A stretch of DNA of 64,000 bases, taken from Nannobrachium achirus (taxonomy: Eukaryota; Chordata; Actinopteri; Myctophiformes; Myctophidae). Positions 27,843 to 30,680 of this stretch are shown piece after piece; the first letter of the stretch is position 1; each line of letters begins with the position of its first letter. The stretch spans positions 43,139,356 to 43,203,355 of the forward strand of contig OY997651.1 of the NCBI GenBank assembly GCA_963921795.1, in the 5' to 3' direction. The notes under the pieces were generated by a model that had not been told where the DNA came from, made no database searches, and saw nothing but the letters and a program-made list of their open reading frames with translations. A program made the translations under genes and the position numbers.

Positions 27843-30680
27843 ATGCTTCTTCTGCTAATCATTCTGGTCTCAGGTGAGGTTTACTTTCTGAGACATTAAA
27901 GGACAATACTGGTGGTGTTACAATGTTTAGTCCATTGAATACCAAACTCATTGAATACTTTCTGTTACTACTGTTAAAGGGTTGGAAATAATTACCAGAT
28001 TGTGCTTTTTATTTTATTCAAACATGCAGGTGATAAATCCACCCTAATGTTATGCTTTTCTGGCTGATATTTATTATGTCACTGCTAAGAAGCCATGGAC
28101 TTTTACATTTAGTCACTAATTAAAAATGGAACATCAAAATGTTGAAAATGTATAGCCATCAAGTCAACCTGTGCTTTGAACATAATTGTAACTCAACAAT
28201 AATACATAATACGTAATAATACATACATTTTCCCTAAAAATAATTAACTAAAAAGTATTTTTTTTATCACTTACTACTGAATGGCATTTTTTGTTGGACA
28301 TTCATATGAATGTCAAAATTAATTATTATTGATTATTGAATCCTCAGGGTTCGGCATCGCCCCTTCCTATTCCAACCACGACTATGATTTTGTTCCCGAC
28401 AAGAAGTCCTGGCTCGGGGCGCAGAGATACTGCAGAGATAAGAACACTGACTTGGCCACGGTAGAGGATGAAACCCAACAGTCCATATTGGAGAAAACAA
28501 CACCCACACCATCCAAAAGGGGGGAATTGGCCTGGCTAGGATTGCGACTCAACACGTCTTGGTGGTGGACAGTAGATGAAAAATACCAGCCTTCCCAGTA
28601 TTTCAATTGGTCCCTTAAGGAGCCAACTAATGGCAAGGGTTGCGCAATTATGAGACCCAATGGACTTTGGAGAAGTGGCTTGTGTACAGGGACACGTTAT
28701 AGCTTTGTTTGCTTCACTCGTGAGTATTTGAACCACTGAAAACAAACTAATGTGTGCATCTTGTTTTTATATTACACAATAACTTATTCAATCTCATCTT
28801 TCCTAGAAGAGGGGGACAACAAAACATACCATCTTGTGAGAGGGACGACAACATACGACGAGGCCAGGGACCACTGCAGAGAACATTTCAAGGATTTGGC
28901 TTTAATAGAGACTCCAGGTGAGCAGTGGTGTAAAGTCACTAAAGTACATTTACTCAAGTACTCTACTCAAGTACACTTTTGAGGTACTTATTTTACTTTA
29001 ATATACTATTTTCCAATTTTGTATACTTTTACTTCTAATCCACTACTATGAGACAGATATTGCACTTTTACTCAGATTTTGATTGTTATTACAAAATATA
29101 AATTACCCACCTATACACATTAGGCCATTTGAAAATAGCAGATCTACAAGCTCACGATGCACCGCGATGTGACACATTGTGAGCTGCTATTTTCAAAAGA
29201 GTTTTACACAATTTATACATTTTAAAACTTGTGAAATGGGATATTCTGCATAATGAGTACTTTCTACTTTTGACACTTTAGTTGTGACAGTTGTAACAGA
29301 GTATTTCTACACTATTGACTATTCTACACTAAATATCTGAGTACCTTTTCCACCACCGCAGGTGAGAATGAAGCTGTATGGAAGCTCTTGAAGGAGGTAA
29401 ACAAGGAGGGATGGATTGGCTTGAGACGAAAGCCACTATGGGTGTGGCCTTGGCCCACCAACTTCACACCCTTCCGTAAGTGGGCAGAGGGACAACCCCC
29501 AGCCTCACCAAACTGTGTGGCAATGGATCTCTCCACAAAGGAATGGCACGCTCAATACTGTTCCCGTAAACTGCCTTTCATCTGCAATGCAGGTGAGGAA
29601 AACGTTTACCGTCATATGTTTTGCCTGTAAGATAATGACATCAATTTTTCATCACGGATTGACATCAGCTTGATATTCTCAGTGTACATGACCTGCGTGT
29701 GTGTGTGTGTGTGTGTGTGTGTGTGTGTGTGTGTGTGTGTGTGTGTGTGTGTGTGTGTGTGTGTGTGTGTGTGTGTGTGTGTGTGTGTGTGTGTGTGTGT
29801 GTGTGTGTGTGTGTGTGTGTGTGTGTGTGTGTGTGTGTGTGTGTGTGTGTGTGTGTGTGTGTGTGTGTGTGTGTGTGTGTGTGTGTGTGTGTGTGTGTGT
29901 GTGTGTGTGTTTTTCAGGCCCCAGACAGACTGTGGTGAGGCTGCAGATACAGAGTGAAGGGGACTTGACAGATCCAGCCATACACTCCCAGCTTCTTAAG
30001 CAGGTAGGCCTACTGTATATCAACGGTTCTCAACCTGTGGGTCGGGACCCAACCTGTGGGAGGGGTCCCCAAATTATTTTGGGGGGTCCCCAGATGTTTA
30101 GCTAAATGTTAACATTGTTTTCTCACTCAACAGTAAACAGACCAACATATAGTATAAGTATGGGGTATCTGCCCATTTTTAAAGTTACAATTTAAGGACT
30201 TTAAATACATTTTTTGTACCTCTGGTCAAATTGTCAAATATCAGAGGCAGAAATTGTGAAAATAGCCGATCTACAGTGAGCATGTAGATCGGCTATTTTC
30301 ACAATGAAATAGATCAAGTCAAACTAAATGTAATGTCAACTCCTACAATTCGAAGTTTGTACAGGGTGGGGGGGTCAATTAAAATATTATTATTTTGGGG
30401 GTCTCAGCCCGAAAAGGTTGAGACTGCTGTATATGATGATGTAGTTTAGTTTAGTTTAGTTTAGTATAAAGTAGGTTAGATATTATTATTATTAGGCCTG
30501 ACATTGCACATTGTCTTTAATCAGGAATAATGTATTTTTTTGGTATATGGTACTGTGTTAAATTCATTGTATTCTCTCTCACAGCTGCATATGGCTCTAG
30601 CGAAGCAGGCGACTGAATTCAAACTACGCTGGATCGCCCCACCAGAAAAGAAGGCTAAGAAAGGAAAAGATGAGCTGTAG
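27843..30680 (+). CDS. Secreted two-domain C-type lectin
   Basis: Six coding exons: 27843-27873, 28348-28719, 28807-28917, 29362-29592, 29918-30003 and 30585-30680, giving 308 aa with consistent phases (mostly phase 1). A short signal peptide (MLLLLIILVSG) is followed by C-type lectin domain 1 (about 20-134, one exon; AWLGL and the cysteines of GCAIM, LC and FVC visible) and domain 2 (about 136-249; HCREHF, GWIGL, NC, YC and FIC), then a 59-aa charged tail. Such lectins bind sugars or other ligands outside the cell, often in innate immunity. The calcium/sugar triplets are not canonical: EPT in domain 1 where EPN is usual, QPP in domain 2 where QPD is usual, and no WND in either, so classical mannose or galactose binding is doubtful. 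The protein ends in KDEL. One intron is a transposon and another ends in a long GT repeat. No membrane segment after the signal. Confidence 0.85.
28923..29358. mobile_element. hAT-type element that forms a lectin intron
   Basis: 436 bp with ends CAGTGGTGTAAAG and a right end CCACCACCG, flanked by the 8-bp duplication CAGGTGAG at 28915-28922 and 29359-29366. The intron (28918-29361, 444 bp) equals the element plus one duplication copy: the left CAG/GTGAG gives the donor and the right CAG/GTGAG the acceptor. Relatives of this element lie near 19975-20092, 56990-57170, 58190-58310 and 61230-61420. Confidence 0.92.
29129..29196. repeat. Recurrent hairpin, copy 3
   Basis: Arms TTGAAAATAGCAGATC and GCTGCTATTTTCAA; the right arm lacks the GTAGATC part. 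Lies inside the intron-forming element. Confidence 0.8.
29697..29910 (+). repeat. (GT)107 microsatellite at a splice acceptor
   Basis: 214 bp of uninterrupted GT. The last T begins a run of five T, then CAG and the next lectin exon at 29918. Confidence 0.98.
30021..30426. mobile_element. hAT-type miniature element in lectin intron
   Basis: Ends CAACGGTTCTCAACC and GGTTGAGACTG with an exact 8-bp duplication CTGTATAT at 30013-30020 and 30427-30434. Carries recurrent hairpin copy 4. Confidence 0.9.
30253..30305. repeat. Recurrent hairpin, copy 4
   Basis: Short-loop version: ATTGTGAAAATAGCCGATC and the full complement, with most of the inner stem deleted. Confidence 0.9.

Follow-up and report, generated by a model that had tools for sequence, protein, structure and literature searches.

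The second lectin domain of a two-domain lectin gene in the genome of Nannobrachium achirus is split at a transposon, and the question raised by this locus is whether the transposon itself made the intron. The first-pass annotation of the 64-kb stretch of DNA analysed here (the window) had proposed such an origin, with both splice sites supplied by the 8-bp target duplication. We consider it highly probable that the best explanation of the locus is the insertion of a hAT-like element at a proto-splice site, which became a spliced intron.

The lectin gene comprises six coding exons (Table 1), which join into a CDS of 927 nt that encodes 308 residues and contains no internal stop or frameshift. 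Both lectin domains match Pfam Lectin_C, and domain 1 was confirmed to lie on a single exon, domain 2 being the split one. When the 444 nt between the two CAG/GTGAG junctions were taken out, the joined exons read ...LALIETPGENEAVWKLL... in the open 927-nt CDS, in agreement with the earlier claim that this predicted splicing restores the frame through domain 2. When the same 444 nt were retained, nine in-frame stops were gained, all of them within the intron, and translation met the first of them at codon 193. This restoration of the frame suggests that the 444 nt, which equal the 436-bp element plus one copy of the duplication, are removed by the spliceosome. The layout of two C-type lectin domains (CTLDs) is like that of the soluble dual-CTLD group F1, which is described in Fugu in a passage of PMC514892, a likeness by domain layout alone. 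A long TG microsatellite (29700-29910) takes up much of the intron after exon 4 and nears its acceptor, and a short weak match to lectin domain 1 (E = 0.026) at 44591-44632 is possibly a relic.

Table 1. Features of the lectin gene and its element (positions in the window) and of three further loci split by related elements (positions in the genome)
Feature	Position	Strand	Description and evidence
Exon 1	27843..27873	+	ATG, signal-like leader (by eye), donor CAG/GTGAGG; open frame in joined CDS
Exon 2	28348..28719	+	C-type lectin domain 1, unsplit; Pfam Lectin_C E=4.5e-16
Exon 3	28807..28917	+	First part of C-type lectin domain 2, end ...ACTCCAG; CDS, paralogue alignments
Left target-site duplication	28915..28922	+	CAGGTGAG; CAG exonic, GTGAG = donor +1 to +5
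Predicted phase-1 intron	28918..29361	+	444 nt; frame test, absent from paralogues
Putative non-autonomous hAT-like element	28923..29358	+	436 bp, internally deleted; genome matches, consensus alignments
Right end of element	29341..29358	+	GTACCTTTTCCACCACCG; pyrimidine-rich stretch before acceptor CAG; sequence, family right ends
Right target-site duplication	29359..29366	+	CAGGTGAG; CAG = acceptor, GTGAG exonic
Exon 4	29362..29592	+	Rest of C-type lectin domain 2; Lectin_C match across the joined exons, E=2.2e-15
Exon 5	29918..30003	+	CDS
Exon 6	30585..30680	+	Stop TAG; CDS
L063	C4:25352850-25353919		Family member splitting WD40_2 exon; joined-flank Pfam match, paralogues
L055	C1:25602563-25603632		Family member splitting long open frame of an unnamed gene; frames alone
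L093/L099	C17:37324560-37325063		hAT-like element in teneurin intron; TEN_NHL match, solved teneurins

The two copies of CAGGTGAG that had been reported directly at the borders of the 436-bp element were confirmed to the base, with 8/8 identity. The focal element starts with CAGTGGTG and ends with CACCACCG, which are complementary at 7/8 positions with one terminal mismatch, and the ends of its family, CAGTGGTG...CACCACTG, form short terminal inverted repeats. At least 66 matches to the element were found in the same genome when 40 of the 4931 first-look candidates were scored. Four of 20 fetched family copies were complete (526-573 bp), with duplications of 8/8 in L027 and L028 and 7/8 in L017 and L024, and duplications of 8/8 were also observed in a nearby 800-bp family copy and in L059, L079 and L084 among 32 copies fetched at AGGT targets, all these counts favouring agreement in that the right ends were picked partly by duplication match. 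The hAT-like inverted ends and the 8-bp duplication that had been proposed were thus found in the focal copy and in family members, and they fit a non-autonomous element of the hAT superfamily. The same annotation had described the case as recent and intact, and neither description was upheld. The focal copy is internally deleted, with 436 bp against about 560 bp in the family consensus, and carries the terminal mismatch. Its distance from a consensus of 24 rows, focal copy included, is 0.154 K2P (range 0.091-0.22); the value was 0.231 in a cruder alignment from which misaligned parts had not been removed. An inverted repeat is located mid-element at 29128-29197, and related pieces occur at many places elsewhere in the window, in both orientations.

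This distance bears on the alternative that the insertion broke the gene and left a pseudogene that is unspliced at these sites. A copy at 0.154 from its consensus has had time for decay, yet the CDS has remained without internal stop or frameshift. In a simulation with neutral substitution only, the frame stayed open with probability 0.053, 0.009 and 0.002 at 0.06, 0.10 and 0.15 substitutions per site, respectively, and indels, which were left out, would lower these values. The insertion of an element into an exon is able to kill a gene, the splicing considered here is predicted from sequence alone, and the consensus distance sets only an upper bound on the time since insertion, with an open-frame probability of 0.23 at 0.03. 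The open frame argues against a pseudogene, and we regard this reading as very unlikely.

To compare the split domain with its relatives, domain 2 was searched against the same genome, which gave 148 listed matches (150 of 277 candidates scored). Of these, 139 span the insertion site in one piece, including three with internal stops and one that is the focal gene's own domain 1; the other nine are the two focal halves (residues 1-40 and 34-113) and seven matches that start past the site. The best four other copies, L050 (C6), L051 (C2), L052 (C21) and L053 (C8), were fetched, and each was found to have an uninterrupted exon. The site reads ACTCCAAGTGAGAATGAAG in L050, ACTCCAGGTGAGGATGAAG in L051, ACTCCCAGTGAGAACGAGG in L052 and ACACCACGTGAGAATGAGG in L053, and the focal peptide across the same site, once spliced, reads ACTCCAGGTGAGAATGAAG. 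A single intact CAGGTGAG is kept at the site in L051. The four paralogues are only moderately close to the focal gene (NG86 dN 0.28-0.40, dS 0.53-1.10), and L052 and L053 may be decaying because their matches are incomplete, the former ending at residue 101 and the latter having an internal gap. No tandem paralogues of the lectin gene were found within 100 kb on either side. In a rough comparison, a distance of at most 0.154 allows the insertion to be placed later than the paralogue duplications. These paralogues of the same genome show that the predicted intron was gained in domain 2, and they support a gain more strongly than the unsplit domain 1, from which it had first been argued.

The same comparison weighs on a second alternative, in which an intron was already present and the transposon inserted into it or took its place. 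Some CTLD families have an intron in this general region, and for the teneurin gene described below four further copies are divided in two close to the site of the element. Against this stand the four paralogues with one target copy and no intron, the large share of listed CTLD matches that span the site, and the gap between the lectin exons, which is exactly the element plus one copy of the duplication. An old intron at this site is, in our judgement, extremely improbable.

The splice signals were then considered together with the duplication. CAGGTGAG was observed four times in the window against 1.8 expected, a count reached by 8 of 100 shuffles, and all four copies fall in the lectin gene, two of them, at 27871 and 29590, serving as donors of introns 1 and 4. 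The match of the 8-mers alone was rejected as evidence on the basis of these counts and of the donor type of the word. The word itself is not rare, and what goes beyond chance is the presence of identical 8-mers immediately at either end of a repeat-family member. When sites between exon 3 and exon 4 (28808-29591) were scored with a weight matrix, the donor CAG/GTGAGC had the highest score (11.22) and the acceptor TTTCCACCACCGCAG/G the best score of its kind (8.65). U2-type features are present, namely GT-AG borders and a near-consensus donor and acceptor. The right copy of the duplication is a strong donor-like word as well (10.88 versus 11.22), which counts against our preferred reading. The proposal that the duplication was the source of both splice sites held for the CAG/GTGAG donor and the CAG/G of the acceptor and failed for the pyrimidine tract and any branch point, which must be the element's. 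A doubled AGGT at both borders also marks introns made by tandem duplication of an AGGT-containing exon segment, as stated in a passage of PMC3443670, but the interior here is not exon sequence and belongs to a dispersed repeat that has termini of its own, so that this origin is contradicted by the family alignment and is scarcely credible.

The preferred reading, an insertion that became a spliced intron, can be set out as follows. A non-autonomous hAT-like transposon would have inserted into the uninterrupted CTLD2 exon at the proto-splice site CAG/GTGAG. The 8-bp duplication would have created a near-consensus donor on the left side of the element and CAG/G on its right side, and the pyrimidine-rich right end of the element would provide the acceptor tract. 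The spliceosome, using a putative branch point within the element, would take out the element together with one duplication copy and leave the protein unchanged, so that the insertion could persist. Such an intron would have originated in a single step.

A genome-wide search for similar targets at exon borders, proposed in the first-pass annotation as a check, was run and gave three more candidate introns, which differ in their support. AGGT was found within four bases of the element 5' end CAGTGGTGTAAAG at 220 sites, compared with 164 for the control ACCT. The excess was not clean and was not used as evidence, because AGGT directly abuts the element end in 23 of 100 listed rows and ACCT in 4 of 100 listed rows. 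We fetched 32 of the 100 listed AGGT sites, all with a purine after AGGT, and eight of these 32 copies were complete with no more than two duplication mismatches. Among the eight, L055 and L063 were coding across the element, L059 was coding-like upstream only, with no exon seen after the element, and five were not clearly coding, including L081 and L082 with open frames of 93 and 69 codons. The right end of the element was not found in L056 and L060, and these two, like L059, were not counted as gains.

Targets in the exact focal register (xAGGTRNG) numbered 22 in the genome, and 18 of them were read in whole or in part: ten upstream and downstream (the focal site and nine of the 32), seven in the upstream flank, and one (C24) in both flanks. 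Six of the seven upstream flanks carried coding-like frames and one was repeat-like (L096); L093, which was among the seven, was later completed by L099. Both borders were identified in five of the 18 (focal, L055, L063, L093 and the C24 pair), of which four are predicted to be element-made introns and one, the C24 pair, is non-coding. Four targets were found in the reverse orientation, and no complete copy was obtained in the three that were read (L088, L089 and L091; the fourth is C6:25013226). Some copies at AGGT targets (L059, L096 and the C24 pair) are found at what looks like the end of an exon or outside coding sequence, which speaks against a general rule. In L092, L095, L097 and L098, read in the upstream flank only, coding-like frames reach AG/GT immediately before the element. 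The Ku70-like locus L094 was not counted as a gain: the alignment with the Ku70 chain runs to the final residue ahead of the border, Pfam Ku_N extends one residue beyond the aligned chain, and there is a weak hint that the border is an old exon end, which also speaks against a general rule.

In L063, a 542-bp element is flanked by the duplication CAGGTACG/CAGGTGCG, and the joined flanks give 56 residues that match 56 positions of WD40_2 (PF19056, E=6.7e-11) in what we take to be a JIP3/JIP4-like gene. When the joined peptide was compared with the genome, six of seven matches spanned the site, and the seventh was the split locus itself, matched at residues 11-58 only. The closest paralogues, on C18 (90%) and at C4:27543 (88%), are aligned over the whole peptide with the exon unsplit, and their exon ends appear to be the same as those of the L063 exon. 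In L055, the duplication CAGGTAAG/CAGGTATG bounds an element of 493 bp that separates two open frames, of 338 and 149 residues. The case for L055 was made from the frame alone, since no Pfam match was obtained and the sequence matched only itself in the genome (E up to 1).

The teneurin intron is 372 nt long, with CAGGTGAG at both sides (8/8) and an interior stretch of 364 bp. About 33 bp of the element's 5' end are common with the focal family and its right end is family-like but shortened; the interior differs from the family, and among the sequences compared only 220-336 matched another repeat. Predicted splicing restores ITQNGQ/VSIAAGRPVH. One teneurin copy (C8:53079935-53080420) is unsplit at the same site, and around this position four others are split in two. 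Two histories are conceivable, the re-creation by the element of an intron that had been lost or its insertion into an old intron, and the first for now seems to fit better because the duplication copies abut both teneurin splice borders.

The focal element, L063 and L055 belong to one family, with which L093 has only the 5' end in common. Paralogues support L063 and L093, and open frames alone support L055. Two or three more introns of this genome thus seem to owe their origin to related elements, and the family resembles a low-frequency vertebrate introner.

Giroux is said to have described a maize Dissociation (Ds) intron in 1994, and Ds is a hAT element. The AGGT transposon-insertion model, in which duplicated AGGT serves as donor and acceptor, is established in the passage on this mechanism by Yenerall and Zhou 2012 (PMC3443670), and the table there lists transposon insertion for Oryza, Drosophila, Oikopleura and Zea, with no vertebrate in that passage. 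The lectin case shares with this model and with maize Dissociation the entry of a transposon into AGGT and the use of the duplicated copies as splice sites, and differs in its fish host, in its paralogue controls and in the involvement of several genes. Introners, as described in passages of Gozashti 2022 (PMC9860276), are non-autonomous DNA transposons, some with target-site duplications and terminal inverted repeats, that yield introns; in several protists the duplications act as splice sites, and in Florenciella both sites come from the insertion site. The same passages place introners in only two animal groups and report that no pattern of gain was evident in vertebrates (PMC9860276). The elements described here are likewise putative non-autonomous DNA transposons giving predicted introns, with splice sites from the insertion site as in Florenciella, but only a small part of the numerous family copies is known to reside in self-made introns. 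In notothenioid fish, intron 3 of slc26a2 is ascribed, in a passage of PMC12357937, to the putative transposon NTE-1 with 4-nt direct repeats, the gt-ag lying within direct and inverted repeats and a second element being nested inside. There too a putative transposon gave rise to an intron in a fish, but the element has 4-nt repeats and tgt...aca ends that are not hAT-like, and one gene is treated.

A literature search over titles, the beginnings of abstracts, partial lists and few subscription journals returned no vertebrate hAT family making introns, and the abstracts present the gain of introns in vertebrates as a very rare event. Transposon-born introns are already known as a kind, and the multi-gene vertebrate hAT-like case looks new. 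We think it rather likely that a hAT-type lineage acts as a vertebrate introner with a ready pyrimidine tract, whose insertions at CAG/GTRNG would become introns at once and have done so repeatedly (in the lectin, the JIP3/4-like gene, teneurin and one unnamed gene), and that in teneurin a lost intron was perhaps restored, in line with the proto-splice-site idea. The mechanism behind a gained intron can seldom be seen. In this genome, paralogues still hold the state that preceded insertion, and in several genes the two states can be compared at single-base resolution, by which transposon-driven intron birth in a vertebrate becomes directly testable.
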